A stretch of 64,000 nt of DNA, from the NCBI GenBank assembly GCA_017526745.1, contig JAFXQX010000015.1, positions 62,001-126,000 on the forward strand, in the 5' to 3' direction. The position numbers were made by a program, and so were the translations under genes. This document shows, in pieces, positions 9,241 to 55,251 of the stretch. The notes under the pieces are model-generated. The model ran no database searches. It saw only the letters and a program-made list of their open reading frames with translations, and was not told the DNA's origin. How positions within the stretch are numbered: position 1 is the stretch's first letter; each line of letters starts with the position of its first letter. The DNA is from Lachnospiraceae bacterium. Lineage in GTDB: Bacteria; Bacillota; Clostridia; Lachnospirales; Lachnospiraceae.

Positions 9241-11033
9241 ATGAATGCTGACACGGCGGCCTTTCTGGACCGCTTTGTCAAACGCGTGAAGGCAACCCCT
9301 CCGGGAGTGTGCCCGATAGCAGTCCAGCTGGCATTCCTGCAGTGTGCCAGGTCGCAGACATGCGGAAAGTGCGTTCCGTGCCGTGACGGCCTTGAGCAGC
9401 TCGAAAAGATGATGCTCGCCATACTTGAAGGCCGCGCCGACATGGATACTTTCCATGACATGATCGCACTTGGCACGATGATAAGGGACAGTGCGGACTG
9501 TGCCATAGGATATGAGGCTGCAAGAGTCGTACTTGAGAGTACGCAGCTGTTCAGGGAAGAGTATATCAGCCATATAAGGGATCATTCATGCCGCGAGGAG
9601 GTCGGGCAGAAGATCCCGTGCATGCTCGCATGCCCGGCAAGTGTCAACATACCCGGGTATATAGCCCTGATAGGAAAAGGCCGCTATGCCGAGGCGATCA
9701 ATCTGATCAGGCAGGACAATCCATTTCCGACCGCATGTGCCTTCATATGCGAGCATCCCTGTGAGGCAAAATGCAGGAGGGAACTTCTTGATTCTCCCAT
9801 AAATATAAGGGGACTTAAGAAATATGCGGTCGACCGGATAGCAGCCGATCAGGTAAGGATACCCGCATGCAATGTTGCCACAAGAAAGAAAGTTGCCGTG
9901 ATCGGAGGCGGACCTTCGGGACTTACGGCGGCATACTATCTGTCGCTCATGGGACATCACGTTGACATATTCGAGCAGATGGACAAGCTTGGCGGTATGC
10001 TGCGGTACGGAATACCGAATTACAGACTGCCCAAGGACAGACTCGATCAGGATATAAATGCGATCCTCTCTTCGGGAAATATAACCGTTCATCTTGCCAC
10101 AGTGGTTGATGCCAAGATGGCGGATGAGATCGAAAAAGAATATGATGCCGTCTACATCTCGATAGGTGCCCAGAAGGGCAAGAACGTCAGGATAGACGGT
10201 GCCGATGCAAAAGGAGTCCTGTCGGCGGTTGATTTTTTGAGGGATATCGGAAAAGGGGATATCCTGATTTTTCCGGAAAGAGAGTGGTTGTCGTAGGTGG
10301 CGGCAACGTCGCAATGGATGCCGCAAGATCTGCGATACGCTGTCATGCCGACGAAGTGACCGTGATCTACAGACGCAGACAGGTCGATATGACAGCGCTT
10401 GCCTCCGAGATACAGGGGGCCATAGAAGAGGGCGTCGAGCTTCTTACGATGAACGCTCCGCGCTCGGTAAGAGTTGAAGGCGGTAAAGTGGCGGGTTTTG
10501 TTATGCAGCCGCAAAGAACGGGCGAGTACATCAACAGCAGACCGGGCGTGACAAACGCCAATTCGCCCGAACGCGAGGTCAGGTGCGAGATCGTTCTTCT
10601 GGCGATAGGCCAGGATATCGAGTACTCTCCTTTTGAAAAATATGGTATCAATACGGCCAGAAAAACGATCGAGGCATCTGAAAGCGCAAAGGTCGCGGGA
10701 TCCGAAAAGGTCTTTGCGGGAGGCGACTGTGTACTGGGACCCGCTACCGTTATCAAAGCCATTGCGGCAGGCAAGACTGCGGCACTTGGCATTGACGAGT
10801 ATCTCGGATATCACCATAAATATCTTGAAGAGATCGAAATACCGGAGCCGGAAGAGAACAACAGAAAACATTACGGAAGAGTGCATCTTGTCGACGTATC
10901 GGCACGAGAGCGCAAGAAGAATTTTGAACCCGTAGAGCTGGGGATGTCGTACGAAGAGGCCATGCAGGAATGCAATAAATGCTTAAGGTGTGACCATTTC
11001 GGATGCGGCAGCGTGATAGGAGGCAGTATCTGA
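9241..11033 (+). pseudogene. NuoF-C-terminal/GltD-like NAD(P)-FAD iron-sulfur oxidoreductase, interrupted by a frameshift
   Basis: Two abutting frames (to stop 10296, and from about 10273 to 11033) together encode one protein of roughly 597 residues. N-terminus: a NuoF-like iron-sulfur domain with SQTCGKCVPCRDG and a distal Cys (SADCAIG). Next comes a GltD/dihydropyrimidine-dehydrogenase-like Cys-rich domain (CMLACPASVNIPGY, CAFICEHPCEAKCRRE), an FAD-binding GGGPSG motif and, after the break, a second nucleotide site VVVVGGGNVAMDAARSA. The 5' frame runs into ILIFPEREWLS and stops; adding one T to the T5 run at 10268-10272 restores ILIFSGKRVVVVGGG. So it is a 1-nt deletion, a homopolymer sequencing error, or less likely a -1 frameshift. 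It would pass electrons between NAD(P)H and the following FdhF. An ATG at 9208 is an alternative start. Confidence 0.8.
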
Positions 11034-13723
11034 TGAGCAGGATCATTATTGACGGCCGGGAACTGGACGTATCGGATGATCTGACGATCCTTGAGGCGGC
11101 TGCCGAAAACGATATAAAGATACCGACTCTTTGTTATCTCAAAGGAGTTAACGAGATCGGGGCATGCAAGATGTGCGTTGTGGAACTTGAGGGATCGGAA
11201 AGCCTTGTGACGAGCTGCACGACAAAAGTATGCGACGGCATGACGGTATATACGGCTTCCGAAAAAGTCGTTTCGGCCAGAAAGGAGATGCTCCATCTCA
11301 TTCTGGCGCATCATGACAACAGATGCATCATATGCGGGAAAGCCGGCGAATGCCAACTTCAGGACCTTGCAAGAGAATACGGCATAGAGACTTCCAAATA
11401 CGAAAAAACGGTCCACAGGGCACTTCCCAAGAAGGAAAATCCCTTCCTGTCGTATTATCCCGAACTGTGCATAAACTGTCAGAGATGTGTTTCGACATGT
11501 CATAAGATCACCGGTAACAGGACACTCAAAAACGGAAAACTCGGAACCGTTACGCTCATAGATGCGCCTTTCGGTCCGAATTGGAAAGAGACCGACTGCG
11601 AGAGCTGCGGCAACTGCGCATCGGCTTGTCCGACAGGGGCTCTTATCGCCAAGAACCGGAGCAGATATCAGCCCGGAAGAGTCAGAAAGGTCCTGACCAC
11701 ATGCCCGCACTGTGCAACGGGCTGCCAGTATTATCTTGTCGTAAGGGATAACGTGATAGTCGATACCGAGCCTGCAGACGGTCCGTCCAATAAAGGACTC
11801 TTGTGCGTGAAAGGACGGTTCGGATCTTTCAACTTTGTCCATTCTTCGGACAGGCTCAGGCATCCCCTCATCAGGAACAGGGAAACCGGAGAGTTCAGAA
11901 AGGCCACGTGGGATGAGGCGCTTGACCTTATAGCCGAAAAGTTTTTGCATATAAAGGATAAGTACGGGGCGGATGCCCTTGCGGGTTTTGCATGTTCGCG
12001 TTCACCGAATGAAGACTGTTATATGTTCCAGAAGATGGTCAGATGCGCATTCGGGACCAATAATGTCGATAACTGCGCAAGAGTGTGCCATTCGGCAACG
12101 GTTGCCGGGCTTGCGATGACCCTCGGCTCCGGAGCCATGACCAACCCGATCGGTGATATCACAAACGATGTGGACTGCATCATGCTGGTGGGATCCAATC
12201 CAGAGGAAGCCCATCCGGTCATCGGAATGCAGATCAGGCAGGCGGTCGACAGGGGAACGAGACTGATCGTTGTGGATCCGAGAGATATAGGTCTTTCAAA
12301 GAGAGCGGACGTACATATCAAATTAAAGCCCGGGACAAACGTGGCGTTTGCGAACGGAATGATGAACGTGATCATCAACGAGGGCTATGCGGACGAGAAG
12401 TTCATAGCCGAGCGTACGGAAGGATATGAGCAGCTTAAGCAGATCGTCATGGAGTATACTCCGGAAAAGGTCGGCAGGATCTGCCATATAGATCCGGATC
12501 TTCTGCGTGAAGCTGCACTTATGTATGCAAAGGCAAAGAAGGCCCCGATCATATACTGCCTCGGCGTTACCGAACACTCCACCGGAACCGAGGGCGTAAT
12601 GTCCATGTCCAATATGGCGATGCTTGTCGGAAAGATCGGAAAGAGCGGCTGCGGGGTCAATCCGCTGCGCGGCCAGAACAACGTTCAGGGAGCATGCGAC
12701 ATGGGCGCGCTTCCGACAGACCTTCCGGGATACCAGAAGGTCACCGATCCGGCAGTCATCGAAAAGTTCGAGAAAGCCTGGAATACGAAACTTAGCACCA
12801 GACCCGGAACATTTGCCACCGAAGTGTTCGGCAAGGCGGTCAAAAAAGAGATAAGAGGGCTGTTCATATTCGGTGAAGACCCGGTCGTTACCGATGCCGA
12901 TCAGCACCATATCAGAAAAGCACTTGAAAGCCTTGATTTTCTCGTTATGTCCGACCTGTTCATGACCGAGAGCACCAGGTATGCCGACGTTATACTTCCC
13001 GGCACATCATATGCCGAAAAAGAGGGAACGTTCACAAACACCGAGCGCAGGGTCCAGCGTGTCAGAAAGGCCGTGACCGTTGACGGGCAGGCAAGGCTTG
13101 ATACCGATATATTCATAGATCTTATGAACCGTATGGGATACAGTCAGCCGCAGATGACGAGCGAGGAGATAATGGATGAGATTGCAGCTGTTACGCCGAG
13201 CTTTGCGGGGATATCTCACAGAAGGCTTGACAGCGGCCAGAGCCTGCAGTGGCCCTGCACGGACAACAGACATCCCGGAACGCCTATCCTTCATGTTGAC
13301 AGGTTCTCCAGGGGACTCGGATGGTTCTTCCCGGCCGAGTACAGGGAAAGCGCCGAGATGCCGGACAGCGAATATCCCTATCTGATGATGACCGGCCGGA
13401 TATTGTACCATTACAACACCCGTGCGATGACGGGAAGGACGCCGGGACTCGTCGAGAGGGAAAATCATTCGTTCATCGAGATCAATGTGGCGGATGCATC
13501 AAGGCTCGGTATCGTAAACGGGGAAAAGATCAGGGTATCTTCAAGGAGAGGGGCGCTCATATCAACCGCAAGGGTTTCGAAGAAGGTCTCCGAAGGCGAG
13601 ACATGGATGCCTTTCCATTTTCCGGACGGCAATGCCAATATACTCACAAATGCCGCGCTCGACAACTATGCGCACATACCTGAGTATAAAGTCTGTGCGG
13701 TAAATCTTGAAAAGATATTCTGA
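11033..13723 (+). CDS. fdhF: molybdopterin formate dehydrogenase alpha subunit with NuoG-like N-terminus
   Basis: Oxidises formate (or reduces CO2), passing electrons through a chain of clusters. 896 aa. Residues 1-80: a 2Fe-2S ferredoxin fold (C34, C45, C48, C62). Residues 93-107: the His/Cys cluster pattern HHDNRCIICGKAGEC. Residues 146-203: two 4Fe-4S motifs (CINCQRCVSTC, CESCGNCASACP). From 224 the catalytic part begins with a 4Fe-4S site CPHCATGC and bis-MGD binding. The metal ligand is Cys352 (NCARVCHSA, codon TGC) where E. coli FdhF has selenocysteine, so no recoding is needed. Overlaps the preceding oxidoreductase stop (TGATG), with an AGGAGG site. Probable NAD(P)-linked, possibly bifurcating, soluble FDH, placed oddly in the hexuronate operon. 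Confidence 0.92.
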   Translation: MSRIIIDGRELDVSDDLTILEAAAENDIKIPTLCYLKGVNEIGACKMCVVELEGSESLVTSCTTKVCDGMTVYTASEKVVSARKEMLHLILAHHDNRCIICGKAGECQLQDLAREYGIETSKYEKTVHRALPKKENPFLSYYPELCINCQRCVSTCHKITGNRTLKNGKLGTVTLIDAPFGPNWKETDCESCGNCASACPTGALIAKNRSRYQPGRVRKVLTTCPHCATGCQYYLVVRDNVIVDTEPADGPSNKGLLCVKGRFGSFNFVHSSDRLRHPLIRNRETGEFRKATWDEALDLIAEKFLHIKDKYGADALAGFACSRSPNEDCYMFQKMVRCAFGTNNVDNCARVCHSATVAGLAMTLGSGAMTNPIGDITNDVDCIMLVGSNPEEAHPVIGMQIRQAVDRGTRLIVVDPRDIGLSKRADVHIKLKPGTNVAFANGMMNVIINEGYADEKFIAERTEGYEQLKQIVMEYTPEKVGRICHIDPDLLREAALMYAKAKKAPIIYCLGVTEHSTGTEGVMSMSNMAMLVGKIGKSGCGVNPLRGQNNVQGACDMGALPTDLPGYQKVTDPAVIEKFEKAWNTKLSTRPGTFATEVFGKAVKKEIRGLFIFGEDPVVTDADQHHIRKALESLDFLVMSDLFMTESTRYADVILPGTSYAEKEGTFTNTERRVQRVRKAVTVDGQARLDTDIFIDLMNRMGYSQPQMTSEEIMDEIAAVTPSFAGISHRRLDSGQSLQWPCTDNRHPGTPILHVDRFSRGLGWFFPAEYRESAEMPDSEYPYLMMTGRILYHYNTRAMTGRTPGLVERENHSFIEINVADASRLGIVNGEKIRVSSRRGALISTARVSKKVSEGETWMPFHFPDGNANILTNAALDNYAHIPEYKVCAVNLEKIF

Positions 13724-43751: not shown

Positions 43752-44876
43752 ATGAAGAGATGTTACATCGCTCAGGCCGAAGATAAGATCGGCACAAAAG
43801 TATATCCGCAGATAGAGCAGCAGCTGTCCGAAAACGGGGACCCGATCAAACCGGTCCTTGTGATCTTTGCGTCCGATAATGCCAATTTCGGATGGTATTC
43901 CAGAATGCTCTCCAATTCATTTCCCGAAGCTACAGTCATCGGAACAACCTCAAGCACGGTATATTCAAATAAGGGACTGGCCAGAACGGGTCTTTGCGTT
44001 ATGGCTGTGACGGAAGGCATCACCGTATCTTCCGGACTTTTATTTGAGGCGAGCCGTTATCCCAAACGTTCAGCCGATTCGATAAGAAAGGCTCTTTCCC
44101 AATTTCCTTCGGAGAACAGTGTATGCCTTGAGTTCAACGCATCCGCGGAGAACTGCGAGGAGCTCGTGATGGATACATTCCGTGAGGTCATGAAGGATTC
44201 CGGTATTCCCCTGCTCGGATGCTCGGGAGCGACTGCGGAGAATCCCGACAGACCTTCGGCGGTCTCTCTTAACGGGATACTGTATATGGACACCTGTGCG
44301 TTTGTGTTCATTCACAATGAGACGGGTAAGATCTCCATAGTCAAAGAGAATATGTTCGAGCCGACCAAGCATTTCTTTGTCGCAACGGATGTTGACTGTG
44401 ATGCGAGAAAAGTCTATGAATTCGACCATAAGGGTGCGACAGGTGTTGTTGCAAGCGCCCTTGCGATCCCCGAAGATGAACTTGCCGCAAATTCATTTTT
44501 CCACCCGCTCGGCCGTATTGAAGACGGCGACCTTTCCATAGTCGGGGTGCGTGAGATGTTCCCCGATAACAGCATGAGCTTTTTCTCGAGAATATACAAC
44601 GAGACAAGGGTCGAACTGCTGGACCCGATCGAGCCCGTCGAAGACGTGTGGGCAGATACTTCCAGGAAGATACATGATCAGATAGAGGCCCCCTCGTTTT
44701 CGGTTGTGATCAACTGCTTCTCGAGGATGAGATACTTTACGGAACAGGGTAAACTTTTGGAATACAACCGTACCCTTGCTGATGATTACGGTGATTATAT
44801 CGGCTTTTCCGGACACGGTGAGCAGTATATGTTCAGGCATCTGAACCAGACTATGCTCATTCTGGCTTTTGAATGA
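43752..44876 (+). CDS. FIST-domain sensory protein
   Basis: 374 residues made of FIST_N (about 30-215) and FIST_C (about 225-360) domains, a small-molecule sensory module found in signalling proteins and proposed to bind amino acids. Seen: KPVLVIFASDNANFGWYSRMLSNSFPEATVIGTTSSTVYSNKGL, LLGCSGATAENP, and in the C-terminal half NSFFHPLGRIEDGDLSIVGVREM plus GFSGHGEQYMFRHLNQTMLILAFE. Here it is stand-alone, without fused kinase, PAS or GGDEF domain, but the next gene starts 17 nt later and encodes an iron-sulfur c-di-GMP phosphodiesterase, so the FIST protein is probably its dedicated input or regulator (context inference). No signal peptide; cytoplasmic. Confidence 0.85.
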   Translation: MKRCYIAQAEDKIGTKVYPQIEQQLSENGDPIKPVLVIFASDNANFGWYSRMLSNSFPEATVIGTTSSTVYSNKGLARTGLCVMAVTEGITVSSGLLFEASRYPKRSADSIRKALSQFPSENSVCLEFNASAENCEELVMDTFREVMKDSGIPLLGCSGATAENPDRPSAVSLNGILYMDTCAFVFIHNETGKISIVKENMFEPTKHFFVATDVDCDARKVYEFDHKGATGVVASALAIPEDELAANSFFHPLGRIEDGDLSIVGVREMFPDNSMSFFSRIYNETRVELLDPIEPVEDVWADTSRKIHDQIEAPSFSVVINCFSRMRYFTEQGKLLEYNRTLADDYGDYIGFSGHGEQYMFRHLNQTMLILAFE

Positions 44877-44892
44877 TATTAACAGGAGTGAT

Positions 44893-47460
44893 ATGAGACG
44901 ATATAACGATGGAATGGTCTATACAAATGACAACTGCGTGGCCTGCAATCACTGCGTCCATGTATGTCCCGCTGTCGGTGCGAACGTCTCTTCCAACGAC
45001 GACGGAAGGATCAGTATAGACGTTTCCGACAAAAACTGCCTTCACTGCGGTACCTGTATCCGGGGATGCGTCCATCATGCACGACGTTTCCATGACAGTT
45101 TCGGTGACATGCTCCATGATATTTCAAGGGGAGCAAAGATCCCGGTGATCATCGATCCCGCGTTTATCGTTGTTTACGGCGAAAAGAAGGCCAGGAATGT
45201 ATTCGGATATCTCAGGTCGCTCGGAATAACCGGCATCTATGACGGGTCGATCGGTGCGGATATAAGCATATATATGCACGCAAAATATCTTCGCGAGAAC
45301 ACGGGTGATCTCGGCGTGTGCGATAAGTTCATGTCACATAACTGTCCCGGCTTTTCCAATTACGTTTCCAGATATGCACCCGATGCGCTTGACAGGTTCA
45401 TTCCCGTTCAGCTCCCGAGCGTATGCGCGGCGATATACTATCGCAAATACAGGCAGATAGCCGGAAGATTCGCACTTCTGTCCCCGTGTACCGCCATGTT
45501 TGATGAGTTCTCGTCATTCAACTCCGGAAGGAACATAAACTATCTCATAGGATTTTCCACTCTTCTTGAGCATATAGGCGATACCGACATCTCATCGATG
45601 GATGCCTGGTTTGATATCGACGAAGCGGCAATGGGATCGGTCATATGCGAGAACGGTGGATTCTCCCGCCTTACGTCTTCTTTCTTTGCACCTGAAAAGC
45701 TTTTCAAGACATATACCGGGATCGGACACCGGCTTGAAGGGATCATCAAGTCGGAGTCAATGAAGACGAAGCAGATGCACCCCTTTATGATAACGGTCGA
45801 CATGTGCGAGCAAGGCTGTGTCAGCGGGCCCGCCATCGATCCTTCATCGGTGGATCAGCTTCTGGCTGTCAACGAGTATGAAAGGGTCTACGGACAGTCA
45901 ATGAGACTTGAGGATGATCCGTTGAACTCTCCTGATGAGCGCTTTGCGAGACTTGCCTCAAGGTTTGAACAGCTCAATCCCCTTGATTTTGCCTGGGAAG
46001 GCGAAGAGAACTATCATCAGAAATGCCAGGTGCCCGAGACCGTGATCGAAGAGATATTCGCATCCATGCATAAGACGACTGCCGTCAAGAAAGAGCTTGA
46101 CTGCCAGGCATGCGGATATTCAAGCTGCCGTGAGATGGCCAGTGCGGTCGCAAACGGGTATTCAAGGATAGAGGACTGCGTTCATTACCTCAACGATGAG
46201 ATGAAGAACCAGCTCGGCATAGACTCGCTTACGCAGCTTTACAACCAGAGAGGATTTTTCCCGCTCGCGACAAGGCTTGTAGCCGATAATCCGGACAAGA
46301 GATATGTGCTCGCCATAGGCGACATAAACGGTCTGGGAGGCATAAACGACCTTTACAGCAACACCGGCGGAGACCTTGTAATATCATATGTTTCCAAGGT
46401 CCTTGCGGAATTTGCGGACGGTCGGGGATTATGCGCACGTATCGGCTCGGGAACCTTTGCGGTCATATTCGAGAACACCGAAGAGAACATGGAAAAGCTA
46501 AAAGCGGATACCCAGGTCTCGATAGCCCATCTGGGAATGGAATACCCGTTGTCGATGAAGTTCGGCATATATGAAATGGGCGACAATTCCGTCACGATCA
46601 GCCGTGCGGTCCTCTATGCGACGTATGCATACAGGACCACGAACGACAAGAGTCGGAATACATATGTATTATATACGGATGAGATGTCAAAGAGCATGTC
46701 GGAAGAGGCCGAAGTCACCCAGAAGATGAAGAGCGCAATGGCAAACGGCGAGTTCGTGATATATCTGCAGCCGAAGTTTGACCACACATCCGGCCGGATG
46801 GTCGGGGCCGAAGTGCTCTCAAGATGGATAAAGCCTGACGGTGAGATAGTCAGTCCCGGAGTGTTCATCCCCGTATTCGAAAAGAACGGGTACATCTCCG
46901 AACTTGACAGATACGTGTGGAAGACCTCGTTTGAGACAGTATCAAAGTGGATCGATGAAGGCAGGACCGCTGTCCCGGTATCGGTGAACATTTCCAGGAT
47001 CAGTCTTCTGGATGAAGCCATCCTACCCTTTATCGAACAGCTGAAAATGCAGTATCCCAAAGCTTCGGAGTTTATACAGTTTGAGATAACCGAGAGCGCA
47101 TATGCCGGAAATACCGACGAGATATTCGGAAGGGTCAGGCGGATCCAGGATATGGGCTTTAAGATAGACATGGACGATTTCGGAAGCGGGTATTCTTCGC
47201 TCAATCTCTTAAAGGATGCGCCTATCGACATAGTCAAGCTCGATATGGGATTTTTGCGCGGAGAAGATCATACCGACAGAGGAAAAGTCATCATATCCGC
47301 GATCGTGAACATGACACGGGAACTCGGCTTTGATATCATCGCCGAGGGTGTCGAGACAAAGGAACAGGCGGATACGCTTGCCTCGATGGGCTGCAGCGTG
47401 ATACAGGGTTATTACTATGCAAGACCCATGCCCGAGGATGATTTTGCCACAATGTTATAG
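44893..47460 (+). CDS. [FeFe]-hydrogenase-like iron-sulfur sensor fused to GGDEF-EAL (c-di-GMP phosphodiesterase)
   Basis: 855 residues. 15-59: two 4Fe-4S ferredoxin motifs (C15/18/21/25, C49/52/55/59). ~80-330: hydrogenase large-subunit-like domain; the four H-cluster-type cysteines are kept (C151 in NCPGF, C199 in SPCTA, C305 and C309 in MCEQGC) but the proton-relay Cys before the first is Asn150 and the Lys of the MPC-x2-K motif is Met202, so H2 catalysis is unlikely. 404-429: a further Fe-S domain (CQACGYSSC, distal C429). ~440-595: degenerate GGDEF (GSGTF). 612-855: intact EAL with E640, N699, E731, D761/D762, K782, E818, Q838. Predicted redox- or gas-sensing c-di-GMP hydrolase. AGGAG before ATG 44893. 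Confidence 0.85.
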   Translation: MRRYNDGMVYTNDNCVACNHCVHVCPAVGANVSSNDDGRISIDVSDKNCLHCGTCIRGCVHHARRFHDSFGDMLHDISRGAKIPVIIDPAFIVVYGEKKARNVFGYLRSLGITGIYDGSIGADISIYMHAKYLRENTGDLGVCDKFMSHNCPGFSNYVSRYAPDALDRFIPVQLPSVCAAIYYRKYRQIAGRFALLSPCTAMFDEFSSFNSGRNINYLIGFSTLLEHIGDTDISSMDAWFDIDEAAMGSVICENGGFSRLTSSFFAPEKLFKTYTGIGHRLEGIIKSESMKTKQMHPFMITVDMCEQGCVSGPAIDPSSVDQLLAVNEYERVYGQSMRLEDDPLNSPDERFARLASRFEQLNPLDFAWEGEENYHQKCQVPETVIEEIFASMHKTTAVKKELDCQACGYSSCREMASAVANGYSRIEDCVHYLNDEMKNQLGIDSLTQLYNQRGFFPLATRLVADNPDKRYVLAIGDINGLGGINDLYSNTGGDLVISYVSKVLAEFADGRGLCARIGSGTFAVIFENTEENMEKLKADTQVSIAHLGMEYPLSMKFGIYEMGDNSVTISRAVLYATYAYRTTNDKSRNTYVLYTDEMSKSMSEEAEVTQKMKSAMANGEFVIYLQPKFDHTSGRMVGAEVLSRWIKPDGEIVSPGVFIPVFEKNGYISELDRYVWKTSFETVSKWIDEGRTAVPVSVNISRISLLDEAILPFIEQLKMQYPKASEFIQFEITESAYAGNTDEIFGRVRRIQDMGFKIDMDDFGSGYSSLNLLKDAPIDIVKLDMGFLRGEDHTDRGKVIISAIVNMTRELGFDIIAEGVETKEQADTLASMGCSVIQGYYYARPMPEDDFATML

Positions 47461-47552: not shown

Positions 47553-48845
47553 ATGCGAAAAAGTGAGAAAAAAGGCTTCGGCAGGGACTTTGAGCGTGCC
47601 TGGACCGAAGGAATGGAAAATCAGGACTGGTCGCTCTTAAACGAGGTCATAGTAAAGAGCGTCGATAACTTCCTTGACGGTGTCGGCGACAGGATGAACG
47701 AGGCCATGGGACAGCCGAACGCAACGCCGTTGTCCAAGCGGCACGAAGACTTTTCGGGTCAGACACAGACTGCAAGAGCACAGAGACAGCTTCATGCAGA
47801 ACGTCAGAAACAGCGTGAGCGCATGGAGGCCGAAAGAAGAGCGCGCGAGGAGGCAAGGCGCGCCAGGAGGATGGCAAAGAGCAATCCGGCGGGAAATACG
47901 GCACTTGCCTTTCCCTTTAAGAATGTCGGCTCGGGCTCATCGACGGCGCTTTCGGTCGTGGGAGGGATCGGACTCGGAGTGACAGCGGTTGCGGCGCTTA
48001 CGAGTATCCCCGCACTTATACTCGGGACGGCATCAGCCGTGGGAATGATCGTATCTGCTGCATTTATGGGGTTCTTTTCGGTCCTGCTGGGCAAAGGCAT
48101 ATACCGTGGCAAGACATCGCAGCTTGCCTCAAGATATGTTCAGATCATCGGAGACCGCAAGTACATTGATGTTGAAACGCTGGCGCTTTCCCTAAACAGA
48201 TCAACGAGAAAGGTCATCCGGGAAATTAAGAAAATGCTCTCAGACGGTTATTTTCCGCAGGGACACCTTGACCGCGACAATAAGACGTTCATCCTTACGG
48301 ATGAGGTCTTTAACCAGTATCTCGAACTTGACAAGCCGCAAAGACGTCGTGATGTTATAGATACGACTGCAAGGAGCGAGGACGAGCCGGAGTTTCCGTC
48401 CCTGTCGCCCGAGGATTCGGCCGAACTGTCACGAATGATAAGAGCGGGCGAAGATTATATCACGAGATTTCATGCGCTTAACAACGACATTCCCGGTGTT
48501 GAGATATCCGCAAAGCTTGACAGGCTTGAGGGACTTCTTCGCGAGATATTCGCAAACATCAGAAAACACCCGGAGCAGATGTCAAGGATCCAGGAACTGA
48601 TGGAGTATTATCTTCCGACGGCCTCAAAGCTCGTCAGTGCATACAGGGAGTATGACAGCGTGAGCGAACCCGGCAAGGAGATATTATCAGCCAAAGGCGA
48701 TATTGAGAATACACTTGATACGATAAATTCCGCACTCGGAAAACTGCTGAACAAGCTGTTCAAGGATTCCGTGCTGGATGTCACGACAGATGCACAGGTA
48801 TTAAAGACGGTCCTTGTACAGAAAGGGCTTTCGGAAACAAACTGA
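47553..48845 (+). CDS. xpaC: XpaC-family protein (companion of TelA)
   Basis: 430 residues. N-terminal amphipathic, very Arg/Glu-rich coiled-coil region (~60-110; QRQLHAERQKQRERMEAERRAR), a hydrophobic hairpin (~133-185; ALSVVGGIGLGVTAVAALTSIPALILG and IVSAAFMGFFSVLLG), then a C-terminal XpaC domain with LNRSTRKVIREIKKMLSDGYFPQGHLDRDNKTFILTDE. XpaC is historically called a bromo-chloro-indolyl phosphate hydrolysis protein, but its true function is unknown; it is consistently paired with TelA in Firmicutes, in tellurite/stress-type loci. Start ATG 47553 lacks a ribosome site; an internal ATG at 47613 (GAAGGA adjacent) is possible. telA follows 34 nt later. Confidence 0.85.
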   Translation: MRKSEKKGFGRDFERAWTEGMENQDWSLLNEVIVKSVDNFLDGVGDRMNEAMGQPNATPLSKRHEDFSGQTQTARAQRQLHAERQKQRERMEAERRAREEARRARRMAKSNPAGNTALAFPFKNVGSGSSTALSVVGGIGLGVTAVAALTSIPALILGTASAVGMIVSAAFMGFFSVLLGKGIYRGKTSQLASRYVQIIGDRKYIDVETLALSLNRSTRKVIREIKKMLSDGYFPQGHLDRDNKTFILTDEVFNQYLELDKPQRRRDVIDTTARSEDEPEFPSLSPEDSAELSRMIRAGEDYITRFHALNNDIPGVEISAKLDRLEGLLREIFANIRKHPEQMSRIQELMEYYLPTASKLVSAYREYDSVSEPGKEILSAKGDIENTLDTINSALGKLLNKLFKDSVLDVTTDAQVLKTVLVQKGLSETN

Positions 48846-48879
48846 TCCGGTTGATATAAAAGATATGGAGGATAGTAAA

Positions 48880-50061
48880 ATGAGTGAAGTTATCGATGCA
48901 CAGGTAGTTGGCGATCAGGCAGTGACTGTAGGGCAGGCAGTGGCCGAAAAGAATACGGCGGATCCGCTCGCGCAGCTTCTTGCCACTCCCCAGAAGGCTC
49001 CGATAGTAGAGACGAGGGAGGATGACCTTTCGCCTGAGGACCGCGAGACTGTCGAGAAATTCGTATCCCAGATCGATATAAAGGATTCGCAGATGGTGCT
49101 CCAGTACGGTGCCGCTGCCCAGAAGAATGTTGCGGAGTTCTCCGAGGGAGCTCTTGCAAGCGTCAAGACAAAGGATATGGGCGAGATCGGTTCCATGCTC
49201 ACGGGTGTTGTTACGGAATTAAAAGGATTTTCCGTTGAGGAACAAAAGGGCGGATTCCTCGGACTGTTCAAGAAGACAAGCAACCAGCTCACATCACTTA
49301 AGGCAAAATACGACAAGGCAGAGGTTAATGTCAACAAGATAAGCAAGGCTATGGAGGGCCATCAGCAGGTGCTCCTTAAAGACGTGGCCATGCTCGACAA
49401 GATGTATGAGGAAAACCTTGATTATTTCAAGCAGCTGAGCCTTTACATCATCGCCGGCAAGAAGAAACTCGATGAGGCCAAGACCACGGAACTTCCGAGA
49501 CTCCTTAAAAAGGCCGAGGAGACAGGCCTGCAGGAGGATTCACAGGAGGCAAGGGATTACGCTGCCATGATCGAGAGATTTGAGAAGAAGATATACGATC
49601 TTGAACTTACAAGAAACATATCCATGCAGATGGCGCCGCAGATCCGTCTCATCCAGAACAATGATACGGTGATGGCGGAGAAGATACAGTCAACGCTCGT
49701 CAACACCATCCCGCTGTGGAAGAGCCAGATGGTGATCGCGATCGGCCTTGATCATTCACAGGATGCCGCCAAGGCACAAAAAGAAGTTACCGACATGACC
49801 AATGAACTTCTCAAGAAGAATGCGGAGGCGTTAAAGATCGCATCCGTCGAGTCGGCCAAAGAGAGCGAGAGAGGCATTGTTGATATCGAGACACTTACCG
49901 AGACGAACCGGATGCTCATAGAAACATTCGACGAGGTCATGAAGATACAGGCTGACGGAAGGCAGAAGAGACTTGCTGCAGAGACTGAACTCAACCGTAT
50001 CGAGACGGAGATGAAGGATAAGATACTGCAGATCAGTAGGGAAAGCCTGAAAGTTGAATAG
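48880..50061 (+). CDS. telA: TelA/toxic-anion-resistance family protein
   Basis: 393 residues, cytoplasmic, almost all helical. TelA core: FLGLFKKTSNQLTSLKAKYDKAEVNVNKISKAMEGHQQVLLKDVAMLDKMYEENLDYFKQLSLYIIAGKKKL and IRLIQNNDTVMAEKIQSTLVNTIPLWKSQMVIAIGLDHSQDAAKAQKEV are the family's diagnostic stretches. The N-terminal ~50 residues are variable. TelA proteins are linked to tellurite, antibiotic and envelope-stress tolerance, mechanism unknown, and co-occur with TerD-type systems (none seen here). Start at ATG 48880 behind GGAGG. Its stop overlaps the following membrane EAL gene by 8 nt, an unusual coupling of TelA to c-di-GMP signalling. Confidence 0.93.
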   Translation: MSEVIDAQVVGDQAVTVGQAVAEKNTADPLAQLLATPQKAPIVETREDDLSPEDRETVEKFVSQIDIKDSQMVLQYGAAAQKNVAEFSEGALASVKTKDMGEIGSMLTGVVTELKGFSVEEQKGGFLGLFKKTSNQLTSLKAKYDKAEVNVNKISKAMEGHQQVLLKDVAMLDKMYEENLDYFKQLSLYIIAGKKKLDEAKTTELPRLLKKAEETGLQEDSQEARDYAAMIERFEKKIYDLELTRNISMQMAPQIRLIQNNDTVMAEKIQSTLVNTIPLWKSQMVIAIGLDHSQDAAKAQKEVTDMTNELLKKNAEALKIASVESAKESERGIVDIETLTETNRMLIETFDEVMKIQADGRQKRLAAETELNRIETEMKDKILQISRESLKVE

Positions 50062-51979
50062 TTTTATATACTTTGATCATTGCGCCTTCATTGTTGAGGC
50101 GATCATACTGTTTTCCCTTATAGTCAGGAGAATGACCAGGGGCAGGGTCAACAGATGGGCACTTGCACTCATAACAGATATCATGTTGACGACTGTTGCC
50201 GATATATGTGCGCTTACTTTTGAGGCACTTGACATAGGCAGCAATACGGTCAGGTACATTGCCAATATGTTTGACATATGGGGGACCACCCAGACTGCCG
50301 TGATATTTACGGGCTACCTTTTCGCTCTTATCGGTATCTGGCATAAGATACACGAAAAGCGTGCGCTCACGTACGTATACGTGATCCCGAGCATAATCAT
50401 GACAGTGCTCGTGATAGTGGTCAACCCGTTTGTTAATATCATCTTCCGTATTGATGAGAACGGGATATACCAGAGAGGTCCTGCGTATTTTGCCCTGTAT
50501 GCCCTGTCATACTGCTATGTGCTTGTCGGATACTTCGAAGTCATAAAATACCGCAAGCTCTTTTCATCCCGCAAGATGTTCAGTATATTCCTGGTCTTCG
50601 TGATCATGGTATGTGCGAGCATCATACAGGGAGTGTTCCCCGACCGCTTTGTTCAGATGTTTTTCCTGTCGATCACGTTCCTTATCACCGTACTCGGCGT
50701 CCAATCCCCGGAAGAGAGGATGCACGGGAGCACGGGGCTGTTCTCAATGAACGCGTTTGTACAGGATGTTAATAAGTACAAGATATTGGATGCACCTATA
50801 GGTGTCACGATCTCCGTTATGACGAATTACAATGCACTCACGGAGATGCTGGGGTATTTCACCGTTCAGTCGATAATAGCCGATACGGCAAAAAGACTGG
50901 AAAAGTGGGCAACGATCAGCCGGGTCGACGCAGATCTGTATTATCTCGGAGGCGGAAGATTTGCCGTTATCACCGATGACAGATATGAAGAAAACTGGCT
51001 CACGATCTCCCAGGGCGTAAACGCGGTCCTTGCAAAGGAAGCCGAAGTCGGTGAGATGTCCGTAAAGGTCATGAACAATGTTTGCTTTATAAACTGGCCG
51101 AAGGATATCGACGATCCGGAATTCCTGTTCTCGTTTGACGGGCGTCTGGAAAAGGAAGCATACAGCGGTGAACTGCGTTACGCCGAGAAACTGTTTGACA
51201 AGAAGCGGTTTGAACTCAGGCGGGATATCTCGAAGGTTATTGATAGGGCATTTGAACAGAAACTGTTCGCCCTTCATTTCCAGCCCGTATTTTCCGTTAA
51301 GGACAATAGGTTTGTCAGAGCGGAAGCCTTCCTTCGCCTTAACGATCCCGAATTCGGACAGATCCTTCCCGACATTCTTATCAGCGAAGCGGAGAAGATC
51401 AATTCGATACATGCGATCACAACGTTTGTCATAGAAGAAGTGTGCCGGTTTATCTCTTTGCCCGACTTCCTGCTCCTTGGATTGGACTATGTCGAGATCA
51501 ATCTGTCACCGACACAGTGCATGTGGAGCGATCTGCTCCCGGTTCTTCTATCTACCATGAAGAATTACAATGTCCAGGCCAAGAACATAGGCTTTAACAT
51601 AACGGACGTTGACAGCCAGGAAGTGTTTGAAAAGATGTGCGATAACATAGATGCGCTGTCCCAGGTCGGTTTTACCATATTCATGGATGATTTCGGTGCG
51701 GGAATATTTGAGGTTGAACGTATTGCCAGGATGCCGCTTTCCGGTATCAAGTTTGATCGCCATTTTGTAAAGGAAGGCTTAAAGACCGAGAATGATGCCG
51801 TATTTGAGGGGAGCCTCCGGATGATCAGGGATCTTGAGATAGATGCCGTCTGTGTCGGCGTTGAGGACGAGAATATGCGCGACCGCCTCATCGAGTGCGG
51901 ATGTAATTACCTGCAGGGATACTACTACTGCAGACCTCTTGAAAAAAAGGAACTTATCAGGTTCATCCTGATGGGATAG
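50054..51979 (+). CDS. membrane GGDEF-EAL protein, probably catalytically inactive EAL
   Basis: 641 residues. About seven N-terminal membrane helices (residues 8-216; starts FDHCAFIVEAIILFSLIV), a degenerate GGDEF (LGGGRFAVI at 298-306), and an EAL domain (~385-641). Metal and catalytic positions are eroded: EAF (424-426), N483, DDFG (545-548), K566 and Q621 are kept, but the Glu of the EITE motif is Asn515 (FNITD) and the Glu of AEGVE is Val601 (CVGVE). It therefore more likely binds c-di-GMP or a partner than hydrolyses it. The start is probably TTG 50054, overlapping telA by 8 nt; later ATGs would lose the first helix. Tandem paralogue follows after 7 nt. Confidence 0.85.
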   Translation: MNSFIYFDHCAFIVEAIILFSLIVRRMTRGRVNRWALALITDIMLTTVADICALTFEALDIGSNTVRYIANMFDIWGTTQTAVIFTGYLFALIGIWHKIHEKRALTYVYVIPSIIMTVLVIVVNPFVNIIFRIDENGIYQRGPAYFALYALSYCYVLVGYFEVIKYRKLFSSRKMFSIFLVFVIMVCASIIQGVFPDRFVQMFFLSITFLITVLGVQSPEERMHGSTGLFSMNAFVQDVNKYKILDAPIGVTISVMTNYNALTEMLGYFTVQSIIADTAKRLEKWATISRVDADLYYLGGGRFAVITDDRYEENWLTISQGVNAVLAKEAEVGEMSVKVMNNVCFINWPKDIDDPEFLFSFDGRLEKEAYSGELRYAEKLFDKKRFELRRDISKVIDRAFEQKLFALHFQPVFSVKDNRFVRAEAFLRLNDPEFGQILPDILISEAEKINSIHAITTFVIEEVCRFISLPDFLLLGLDYVEINLSPTQCMWSDLLPVLLSTMKNYNVQAKNIGFNITDVDSQEVFEKMCDNIDALSQVGFTIFMDDFGAGIFEVERIARMPLSGIKFDRHFVKEGLKTENDAVFEGSLRMIRDLEIDAVCVGVEDENMRDRLIECGCNYLQGYYYCRPLEKKELIRFILMG

Positions 51980-51986
51980 GAGATTT

Positions 51987-53936
51987 ATGGCAGCGGATAT
52001 TACAAATGATGTTGTCGCATATGATTATTGTGCTTTTGTACTGCTTCTGATCATCGTGGTATATTATTTCCGCACGAGCGTTCACGGGACATACCGTGCA
52101 AGGATCATGACACTTATCGTTGCGGTCACCATTGCAGCTTCAGTCTGCGATGCCACACGGGTAAGGTTTGCAAATCTTCCCCGGGTATCACAGAGCAGAT
52201 ACTTTTTTGTCAATTATGCTTATCTGATGTTCCTGTCCTTTATCACCCCTCTCTTTCTGATGTATGTCATCGCGACAACGGATATGTGGCATAAGTTCTC
52301 TATGGTCACGGTAAGAGCCGCTCTTATTGCGGCACCCTTAGTTGCTTTTAATATCATACTGATCATCAACTTTATAAGACCGGTGGCCTTTGAGATCGGA
52401 GCAGACAGGCTGTTCATCAAGCACTGGGGCTATTACATGGGCTATATCATCTTCCTGTTCTATATGCTGATCACGGCGCATTTTGTCAGGAAAAATGTCC
52501 GCCCGATAGACCACAGGAGACATTTTGTTCTCATGGCCCCCATAATCGCCGTCGCAATGGGAATGGTCGTAAATGTTTTTGCCCTGCACCACCACGTGAT
52601 CTGCTTTGCCGTGACCATCTGCATACTGATGCTGATCCTCATAAACAGAAGAGTGGAGGATTCGGTCGATATTTCGACCGGGATGCACACATATAAAGTG
52701 TTTGCCGAAGACATGGATATCAATTTCAAGACCGGTAAGCAGATGGATATAATCCTTCTCAACATTGTGAATTACAAGTATGCATTAAGGATGGTCGGGT
52801 ATGATGCGATGATAGCCATGATGACTCCGGTATCTTCCGAGATACTCCGGATCATGAAGAGATATCATGCCCAGTTCATGTGCTATTACAACGGTGACGG
52901 AAAGTTCGCTATAGAACTGTCCAAGAGGCATTTCGCATATGCCCACGAGATCGCGGATGAGATAGGACGCTCCATCCGTCAGAATATCAGACTGGAAGTG
53001 GCTGATTTCGAGCTTGCGATCAACACCTGCCTTGTCAACTGTCCCGACGATATCTCGGATGTTGATTCGCTCTTTATGCTGATCTCCGATCTTGATCTTG
53101 CGGAAGCGGACGGGAAGGTTGTTTCCGCATCGAGCATCACCGATACAAAAGAGTTCACCATGAAAAAGGAAATGTCGACGATAATCGACAGAGCTCTTAC
53201 CAATCACTATTTCTCGGTATTCTACCAGCCGATCTATGACACGAAGACCGGAAAGTTTTCATCAGCGGAAGCGCTGCTGCGACTGCGCGATCCCAAGTAC
53301 GGATACATCTCGCCGGCACTCTTTATACCGATCGCCGAAAAGAGCGGGGCGATACATGCCATCGGTGATTTTGTGCTCGAGGAAGTCATCAAGTTCATTG
53401 CATCCCCTGATTTTAAGCCTCTCGGAGTCGATTACATCGAGATAAACCTTTCGGCAATGCAGTGCTTAAGGAGCGATCTTTCCAATGACATCATCTCCCT
53501 TGCTTCAAAGTACGGAGTCGATCCCGCGAAGGTCAATCTTGAGATAACCGAGACGGCCAGCGGATATTCGCAGTCAAAACTCTACGGAAATATACAGGCG
53601 CTTTCGGACTACGGATTTACCGTATCACTGGATGATTTCGGCACGGGCTATTCGAACCTTATGAGGATAGCTTCGCTCCCGCTTGACATAGTGAAGCTTG
53701 ACCGTGTGTTCGTTCTGATGGAAGAAGGCGGCGGTCATCATGTCATCATCAGGAACCTGATAAAGATGCTCAAGGAAATGAAACTTAAGGTTTTGGTCGA
53801 AGGCGTTGAGACAAAAGAAATGCTTGATTCGTTCGTGCAGATGGGAGTGGATGAGGTCCAGGGATTCTATTTCTCAAAACCTCTGACCAAATCAGCTTAC
53901 ATTAGATTTCTGAACGCACAGACACATTCGGCATGA
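51987..53936 (+). CDS. membrane GGDEF-EAL protein, active-type c-di-GMP phosphodiesterase
   Basis: 649 residues, paralogous to the preceding gene with the same layout: N-terminal seven-helix region opening with DYCAFVLLLIIVVYYFR, degenerate GGDEF (YNGDGKFAIEL near 301-311), and an EAL domain with all catalytic positions: E428 of EAL, N487, E519 and E522, D549/D550, K570, E605, E608 and Q625. Expected to hydrolyse c-di-GMP to pGpG at the membrane; the membrane part is the likely sensor. GGAG ribosome site, start ATG 51987. An inactive/active tandem pair suggests hetero-oligomer regulation (inference). Confidence 0.9.
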   Translation: MAADITNDVVAYDYCAFVLLLIIVVYYFRTSVHGTYRARIMTLIVAVTIAASVCDATRVRFANLPRVSQSRYFFVNYAYLMFLSFITPLFLMYVIATTDMWHKFSMVTVRAALIAAPLVAFNIILIINFIRPVAFEIGADRLFIKHWGYYMGYIIFLFYMLITAHFVRKNVRPIDHRRHFVLMAPIIAVAMGMVVNVFALHHHVICFAVTICILMLILINRRVEDSVDISTGMHTYKVFAEDMDINFKTGKQMDIILLNIVNYKYALRMVGYDAMIAMMTPVSSEILRIMKRYHAQFMCYYNGDGKFAIELSKRHFAYAHEIADEIGRSIRQNIRLEVADFELAINTCLVNCPDDISDVDSLFMLISDLDLAEADGKVVSASSITDTKEFTMKKEMSTIIDRALTNHYFSVFYQPIYDTKTGKFSSAEALLRLRDPKYGYISPALFIPIAEKSGAIHAIGDFVLEEVIKFIASPDFKPLGVDYIEINLSAMQCLRSDLSNDIISLASKYGVDPAKVNLEITETASGYSQSKLYGNIQALSDYGFTVSLDDFGTGYSNLMRIASLPLDIVKLDRVFVLMEEGGGHHVIIRNLIKMLKEMKLKVLVEGVETKEMLDSFVQMGVDEVQGFYFSKPLTKSAYIRFLNAQTHSA

Positions 53937-54006: not shown

Positions 54007-55251
54007 ATGCTTGCTACATTAATTCCTTTATTTGACCGGAACACGGCGGTAAGTGCATATTCGGTTTTTGCGCAGAAACAGAACTTTCTGCTGAATCCGA
54101 GCATGCTCGGTACAGGGTCGCTTGACGGAGCCGGTTCCATACTCGGACTTGAGGTTGTTGAGAGCCTTGGAGCGGGAACGCTTTCCGATAATCAGGAAGT
54201 GTTCGTGGAGCTTTCCAAGATCTCGATGTTCTCCCCGATCGAAGAAGTATGCTCGATGCCGCATGACAAGGTGGTCCTTTTGTTCGACCATAATGTTCCG
54301 GCCGAGGAGATGTATATAAAGAGACTCCAGCAGCTCAAGTTCATGGGCTACAAGCTGGCCATCAGGAATCTTGCGATCGAGCAGTTCAAGGAGTATGCTC
54401 CCATACTTCAGCTCCTTGACTATATCATGCTCGACTACAAGAAGATGAACATGGAGGCCGCAAGGAATTTCTTCTCAAAGGTATATCCCGATATGTCGCT
54501 TATCGCGGTCAACGTTGATTCGATCGAGGATTTTGATGAACTTGCAAAGGGCGAGGCATATTCCCTTTATGAGGGTGATTTCTACAGACTTCCCGTAACA
54601 AAGGGCAAGACAAAGGTCTCACCTCTTAAGGTCAACTATATCGAACTTCTTAAGATAGTCAACAATCCCGATTTCGAGCTGACCAAAGCGGCAGACATAA
54701 TCGGAAGGGATACGGCTCTTGTAATAGACCTTCTCAAGATGGTCAATCATATGGCGGTCAATTCGGAGATCACTTCGATAAGACATGCGGCTGCCATGCT
54801 CGGCCAGAAGGAACTGAAGAAGTGGATCAATGCGGTCGTATCCAAGCAGCTGTGTGCGGACAAGCCCAATGAGATCACGAGACTCTCACTCCTTCGTGCC
54901 AAGTTTGCCGAGAATCTCGCACCCACATTTGAAATGGCATCCCTGTCATCGGAACTGTTCCTTTCAGGGCTGTTCTCGGTGCTTGATATTATCCTTGACA
55001 AGCCCATGACGGAAGCCCTCAAGATGGTAAACGTTTCCAAGGAGATCACGGAAGCGCTCGTTGAAAGAAAAGGTGAACTTGCCAAGGTTCTTGACTTCAT
55101 CGAATGTTATGAGATCGCTTCATGGACCGAACTGTCACGGCAGATGATACTGTTCAACATCAAGGAAGGCCCGGTATATGATGCATATATCGATGCACTT
55201 TCATGGTACAGGGATCTGTTCGGAGACGTGGCCGACAATAAGCAGAAGTGA
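54007..55251 (+). CDS. EAL-remnant plus HDOD-domain signalling protein
   Basis: 414 residues, YuxH type. The N-terminal ~190 residues are a degenerate EAL-like barrel (LIPLFDRNTAVSAYSVFAQ, VFVELSKISMF, LDYIMLDYKKM) without the EAL or DDFG residues, so it cannot hydrolyse c-di-GMP. Residues ~200-400 are an HDOD domain (YIELLKIVNNPDFELTKAADIIGRDTALVIDLLKMVNH; AAAMLGQKELKKWINAVV), an HD-like fold without metal ligands found in bacterial signalling. Starts behind AGAGGAGG after a 70-nt gap with no clear promoter. Probably a c-di-GMP-network effector or scaffold; partners unknown. Confidence 0.87.
   Translation: MLATLIPLFDRNTAVSAYSVFAQKQNFLLNPSMLGTGSLDGAGSILGLEVVESLGAGTLSDNQEVFVELSKISMFSPIEEVCSMPHDKVVLLFDHNVPAEEMYIKRLQQLKFMGYKLAIRNLAIEQFKEYAPILQLLDYIMLDYKKMNMEAARNFFSKVYPDMSLIAVNVDSIEDFDELAKGEAYSLYEGDFYRLPVTKGKTKVSPLKVNYIELLKIVNNPDFELTKAADIIGRDTALVIDLLKMVNHMAVNSEITSIRHAAAMLGQKELKKWINAVVSKQLCADKPNEITRLSLLRAKFAENLAPTFEMASLSSELFLSGLFSVLDIILDKPMTEALKMVNVSKEITEALVERKGELAKVLDFIECYEIASWTELSRQMILFNIKEGPVYDAYIDALSWYRDLFGDVADNKQK

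Follow-up and report, generated by a model that had tools for sequence, protein, structure and literature searches.

A hydrogenase-like iron-sulfur module joined to a predicted c-di-GMP phosphodiesterase in Lachnospiraceae, Oscillospiraceae and Spirochaetota

Introduction

What does a hydrogenase-shaped protein sense when it is fused to a domain for breakdown of cyclic di-GMP (c-di-GMP)? This question is raised by a gene of a gut anaerobe, Lachnospiraceae bacterium (assembly GCA_017526745.1), which we analyzed within a 64,000-nucleotide stretch of contig JAFXQX010000015.1 (positions 62,001 to 126,000; hereafter the window). The encoded protein, here called the fusion, combines ferredoxin-like, [FeFe]-hydrogenase-like, GGDEF and EAL domains (Table 1). 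A preliminary description had proposed that it ties redox state, H2, CO or O2 to c-di-GMP loss. Our data suggest, with a probability of about 55%, that the fusion is a c-di-GMP phosphodiesterase under the control of a chain of four [4Fe-4S] clusters in a hydrogenase-shaped, diiron-free sensor, and that it most likely senses cellular redox state rather than H2. Redox state and O2 are retained from the earlier proposal as the preferred inputs; H2 or CO sensing through an H-cluster is not, given a replaced diiron pocket and maturases (HydEFG) that were not found.

Results

Architecture of the fusion

Pfam matches and a predicted structure give the fusion a dicluster ferredoxin N-terminus followed by an [FeFe]-hydrogenase fold, as in sensory hydrogenases (HydS), and it shares with HydS a C-terminal [4Fe-4S] (PF04060) site. 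Where group C HydS proteins have a PAS output, the fusion has GGDEF-EAL. Its GGDEF domain reads GSGTF in place of the diguanylate cyclase motif GGDEF/GGEEF. The EAL domain scores 209.6 bits against a curated Pfam cut-off of 31.3, and retains all eight residues (E640, N699, E731, D761, D762, K782, E818 and Q838) that we take to fill the functional roles of the catalytic site. Judged by its motifs, the EAL domain should hydrolyze c-di-GMP, and the conserved cysteines of the upstream domains would bind iron-sulfur clusters. The preliminary description had recognized the two ferredoxin clusters, the further Fe-S domain, the dead GGDEF and the complete EAL site, and our analysis agrees; the structure model that it had proposed as a check does predict a hydrogenase-like fold.

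The fusion is conserved and widespread

The preliminary description had also proposed a search for the same architecture, and this revealed something that it had missed: many sequenced genomes encode such a fusion. Of 554 relatives confirmed in named GTDB genomes, we examined the best 80. They comprise 37 EAL fusions, 41 methyl-accepting chemotaxis protein (MCP) fusions and two others, the basis of all counts per 37 EAL or 41 MCP fusions given here, with EAL fusions in Lachnospiraceae, Oscillospiraceae (Ruminococcus, Ruminiclostridium) and Spirochaetota, mostly Treponema. All 16 cluster cysteines, including the eight ferredoxin cysteines and those of PF04060, and all eight EAL catalytic residues are kept in 37/37 EAL fusions. 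The proton-relay Cys is absent from every one of the 37, and the pocket Lys is present in 18/37 EAL fusions and 41/41 MCP fusions. No EAL fusion (0/37) has a GG[DE]EF motif, the nearest being GGDDF in L096. The fusion is thus real, conserved and widespread; its architecture, modelled fold and conserved cysteines and EAL site are the firmest part of this sequence-based account.

Rough dN/dS (nonsynonymous to synonymous rate) ratios against the relative L072, with dS near saturation, were 0.024 for the ferredoxin, 0.086 for the hydrogenase-like, 0.026 for the FeS, 0.041 for the GGDEF and 0.036 for the EAL domain; the linker (residues 331-395) yielded no value. In a midpoint-rooted tree of 61 rows, which leaves out the MCP rows whose locus numbers are odd, the fusion and L072-L076 form one clade (support 100/100), and the MCP rows are the only output group that makes up one side of a branch (100/99). 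A single origin of EAL fusions was rejected, since the tree needs several label changes.

A second search, with residues 1-437 as query (E ≤ 1e-25) against 397 genomes of the same family, identified a sensor relative in 87. Among 20 regions fetched from these, picked mainly by open reading frame length, nine hold EAL fusions, five of them with an adjoining FIST gene. (L110 and L118, being contigs of G076 and G241, are also counted in the family set.)

Relatives also carry other outputs, with chains of histidine-kinase, receiver and Hpt domains. The sensors at L067:3810-7844, L068:2336-6580, L065:3721-7146 and L141:5980-9144 have outputs of the histidine-kinase, receiver, Hpt, PAS or GAF type. 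An EAL fusion of Treponema bryantii (L080:6001-9432; 1,143 aa) has a PAS region C-terminal of EAL, and several other Treponema fusions are similar in length. The genome of the fusion encodes a second hydrogenase-like sensor (L012:5557-7491, contig C17), joined to a chemoreceptor signalling domain; it retains the pocket Lys and has Pro at the relay site.

Replacement of the diiron pocket in the fusion and its nearest relatives

All four H-cluster cubane cysteines of the fusion (C151, C199, C305 and C309) are present, and the relay Cys and pocket Lys are both lost, as the preliminary description had stated. Using what we take to be CpI numbering, the [2Fe]-subsite residues A230, K358, F417, G418 and M497 are replaced by D, M, I, C and D, respectively; the fusion thus lacks [2Fe]-holding residues that TmHydS keeps. 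The replacements extend to its five nearest relatives: position 230 is Asp in 6/6, position 358 is Ile or Met in 6/6, and position 497 is Asp in 5/6. In the same table, HydA from the fusion's own genome has every [2Fe] contact intact. Relatives from maturase-bearing genomes (L074, L076 and G193) have lost the same residues, and the pocket argument is therefore independent of the HydA and maturase findings described below. The hydrogenase-shaped sensor of the fusion probably lacks the H2-handling part, and H2 chemistry is most likely missing from its clade.

Maturases and HydA

The genome of the fusion, a draft of 43 contigs, is 99.86% complete. HydG and HydE gave no match in it at E ≤ 0.001, and HydF gave only sub-cut-off matches confined to the GTPase region. 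In G193, called the same genus, hydF, hydG and hydE are consecutive (HydG identified by model, HydE and HydF by eye). The markers flanking these genes (71% and 77% DNA identity) lie 3.9 kb apart on one gap-free contig of the fusion's genome, where other, phosphatase- and flavodoxin-like genes replace the hydF-hydG-hydE of the sister species (L163:4019-8928 versus L152:6256-11647; names of genes around hydFGE, and of HydB, were assigned by eye). An assembly gap was rejected as the reason for the missing maturases, because the interval is contiguous, has no N and holds other genes; a maturase copy may still lie on unassembled DNA.

Over the 397 family genomes, sensor and maturase are not associated: HydG is found with 40/87 sensor carriers and 136/310 other genomes (Fisher p 0.81), and 17 of the 33 carriers that are at least 99% complete lack it. 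Per-locus searches (E ≤ 1e-60) covered 50 of the best 80, mostly metagenome-assembled genomes by title: all 37 EAL fusions, L094 and 12 of the 41 MCP fusions. Among the EAL-fusion genomes, HydG matched in 12, HydF in 14 and HydE in 14; all three were missing from 23, including T. bryantii NK4A124, B25 and XBD1002, and L090 and L108 have HydE and HydF matches with no HydG match. HydG was found in 7 of the 12 MCP-fusion genomes searched. The HydG and HydF matches in the genome of L128 are fragments.

We compared HydA-type proteins from 15 genomes, the fusion's own and 14 chosen for strong matches; 11 of the 15 lack HydE, HydF and HydG. In one of these proteins, from L169, Ser replaces a cubane Cys, and that of T. 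bryantii (L177) deviates at several motif positions. The fusion's own genome encodes HydA at L013:2531-4216 (contig C43), with all H-cluster motifs intact, an adjoining HydB-like gene and HydE/F/G not found. Such maturase-less HydA may have a diiron-free function, may reflect maturases missed by assembly, or may be matured by another route. The window also encodes a formate dehydrogenase-type molybdopterin oxidoreductase with N-terminal Fer2 and 4Fe-4S domains (11003-13723), which might be a partner of the maturase-less HydAB.

A FIST gene precedes the fusion gene

Sixteen bases upstream of the fusion gene ends a gene, missed by the preliminary description, whose product has FIST and FIST_C domains as in NosP, with which the predicted fold agrees. 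The two genes probably form one operon, and the FIST product is a probable partner protein of the fusion. Identity as NosP itself was rejected, as the product missed the NCBIfam NosP equivalog cut-off (87.2 bits versus 450). No sequence relative of it was found in the PDB at E ≤ 0.001, and no histidine is invariant among 21 aligned FIST proteins, so any heme binding is putative. A FIST gene lies directly upstream of 23/37 EAL fusions, in both Bacillota and Spirochaetota, versus 0/41 MCP fusions. The other 14 EAL fusions have no adjoining FIST gene, and 12 of these have at least 1.5 kb of upstream sequence.

Table 1. Features of the fusion locus (window coordinates).
Feature	Coordinates	Strand	Size	Composition or basis
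FIST (NosP-like) gene	43752..44876	+	374 aa	
AGGAG, probable ribosome-binding site of fusion gene	44884..44888	+		Read off sequence
Fusion gene	44893..47460	+	855 aa	Fer4x2 - hydrogenase-like - FeS - GGDEF (degenerate) - EAL
Two putative [4Fe-4S] ferredoxin sites (C15 C18 C21 C25 / C49 C52 C55 C59)	44914..45069	+		Pfam Fer4_10
[FeFe]-hydrogenase-like domain	45145..45831	+		Pfam Fe_hyd_lg_C; predicted fold; pocket table
PF04060 Fe-S site (C404, C407, C412, C429)	46096..46182	+		Pfam FeS 3e-9
Degenerate GGDEF domain (GSGTF)	46219..46629	+		Pfam GGDEF 3.6e-13; motif reading
EAL phosphodiesterase domain (predicted)	46726..47427	+		Pfam EAL 5.8e-62

Downstream of the fusion gene, window positions 47553-50061 hold a gene with PF10112 (XpaC-like) and TelA (PF05816); relatives of both likewise trail the fusion gene in G193 (L052). 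A membrane EAL protein at 50054-51979 has motifs that look degenerate (FNITDV, CVGVED) and is probably an inactive phosphodiesterase; the EAL motifs of another, at 51987-53936, are apparently complete. Together with the fusion gene this makes three EAL genes in roughly 9 kb, and an HDOD gene (54007-55251) comes next.

Discussion

Weighing the explanations

If the fusion were a genuine sensory [FeFe]-hydrogenase, its H-cluster would read H2 (or CO) and set phosphodiesterase activity. Its fold, its four cubane cysteines, its HydS-like layout of two N-terminal clusters and a C-terminal FeS site, and the motif-intact HydA of its genome all fit such a protein, and HydS too lacks the relay Cys in the accessible text of PMC10055695. 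The same text, however, has TmHydS retaining [2Fe]-stabilizing residues, whereas the pocket is replaced in the fusion and its five nearest relatives, other genes occupy the HydEFG locus, and the sensor shows no association with HydG. We consider H2 sensing quite improbable, and demoted it as the leading explanation on pocket residues and maturases. The FIST protein could instead be the real sensor, for NO, heme or a different ligand, and act on the fusion, with the Fe-S module mainly a docking site or secondary input. Adjacency to EAL and never to MCP fusions, in two phyla, is consistent with this, as are known FIST proteins in c-di-GMP circuits, namely NosP and CdpA, a FIST-type phosphodiesterase inhibited by heme (accessible part of PMC8846402). 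We judge this arrangement unlikely, although it deserves more credence than an H-cluster sensor: EAL fusions without an adjoining FIST gene exist, the Fe-S cysteines are invariant in EAL fusions, and the FIST proteins have neither an invariant histidine nor a NosP-level score. Least probable of all is that the EAL domain acts as a receptor for c-di-GMP and has no enzymatic role, or that the fusion is a trigger enzyme acting on another partner. The missing GG[DE]EF motif indicates that EAL fusions are not cyclases, and the relative G290 keeps its sensor despite a degenerate EAL, but the eight catalytic residues are complete in all 37 named relatives and the EAL domain is strongly constrained.

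Several points weigh against a diiron-free redox sensor, our preferred reading. All three maturases are found in 12 of the 37 EAL-fusion genomes, and HydA with intact L1-L3 motifs occurs in 9/11 maturase-less genomes, including the fusion's own (10 of the 11 were preselected for strong matches), so missing HydEFG may not mean a missing H-cluster. The pocket Lys retained in about half of EAL fusions and in all MCP fusions means that the wider family might in part bear H-clusters. A ten-member family alignment has two exceptions to conservation, G249 (L064) without cubane Cys305 and G290 (L057) with its degenerate EAL. Finally, a response of the fusion to redox state, O2 or a ligand is something that we infer.

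Proposed mechanism and implications

In the diiron-free redox sensor that we favor, ferredoxin-like electron donors, or oxidants such as O2, would determine the state of the clusters in the N-terminal and hydrogenase-like domains. The change would pass through the FeS domain and a helix to the dead GGDEF and on to an EAL dimer, and the FIST protein may supply a second input or dock on the sensor. Reduced, intact clusters might permit c-di-GMP hydrolysis, favoring motility, and oxidation or O2 damage might stop it; this direction of control is a guess, and the part of which we are least sure. That sibling sensors have MCP and kinase outputs is consistent with a redox sensor of general use.

More broadly, and with slightly less than even confidence, we suggest that in gut and rumen anaerobes the hydrogenase fold became a general diiron-free [4Fe-4S] redox sensor joined to c-di-GMP hydrolysis, chemotaxis or histidine kinases. 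On this view, the EAL fusions and their FIST partner would constitute the first iron-sulfur-controlled c-di-GMP phosphodiesterase known to us, and many "putative H2-sensing" hydrogenase annotations would be wrong. Swimming strict anaerobes must sense redox state and oxygen, and such sensors are poorly known. The pairing of FIST with an Fe-S hydrogenase-like EAL protein in two phyla offers a direct connection, open to testing, between Fe-S state and c-di-GMP. Hydrogenase-like matches of this kind can be read as H2 sensors in surveys; their pocket residues and maturases need checking, because in the 397 family genomes the sensor is as frequent with HydG as without it.

Comparison with known systems

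The preliminary description had held a hydrogenase-like sensor/EAL fusion to be undescribed, and our literature searches likewise found no paper on one. The fusion appears to be a variant of the sensory-hydrogenase kind, with an EAL output not previously described in the literature found. HydS groups C and D, represented by TmHydS and TamHydS, have a matching FeS layout (accessible parts of PMC10055695 and PMC13104023): two N-terminal [4Fe-4S] sites, the H-domain fold with its cubane cysteines, a lost relay Cys and a C-terminal FeS site ahead of the output. They differ in having PAS or no output where the fusion has GGDEF-EAL; the fusion's clade lacks the pocket Lys and other [2Fe] contacts, and its genome has a FIST neighbor and no detected maturases. 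In the accessible part of PMC5037454, HydDB [FeFe] classes C1-C3 are histidine-kinase-, chemotaxis- and phosphatase-linked, all putative; the diguanylate-cyclase-linked class is [NiFe] 2c, and no c-di-GMP-linked [FeFe] class stands among the table rows. By description, not by HydDB classification, C1-C3 resemble our family in joining a hydrogenase-like sensor to a signalling output, MCP in 41 of the best 80 relatives. A gut survey handles group C as putative H2 sensors (accessible part of PMC12578642). A Butyrivibrio survey reports 20 genomes in which the HydA large subunit is unaccompanied by any other subunit (accessible part of PMC4478896); these may be MCP fusions with a sensor of the fusion's kind.

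HylA of formate dehydrogenase-Hyl complexes is likewise hydrogenase-like, without H-cluster motifs and possibly electron-carrying (accessible part of PMC6085437), but is a metabolic electron-bifurcating subunit rather than a sensor. The accessible text of a 2022 census of c-di-GMP sensors (PMC8846402) has no match to "iron-sulfur", "Fe-S" or "hydrogenase". The census includes NosP and Vibrio cholerae CdpA, which also tie a FIST domain to c-di-GMP turnover; CdpA is listed there as a FIST-FIST_C phosphodiesterase and NosP works via a kinase, whereas the FIST protein of our locus is encoded by a separate gene beside the Fe-S/EAL fusion. In DosP/PdeO, RmcA and CdgF, too, a redox- or gas-sensing part governs a c-di-GMP phosphodiesterase, but the sensors of those proteins are heme or flavin PAS domains.
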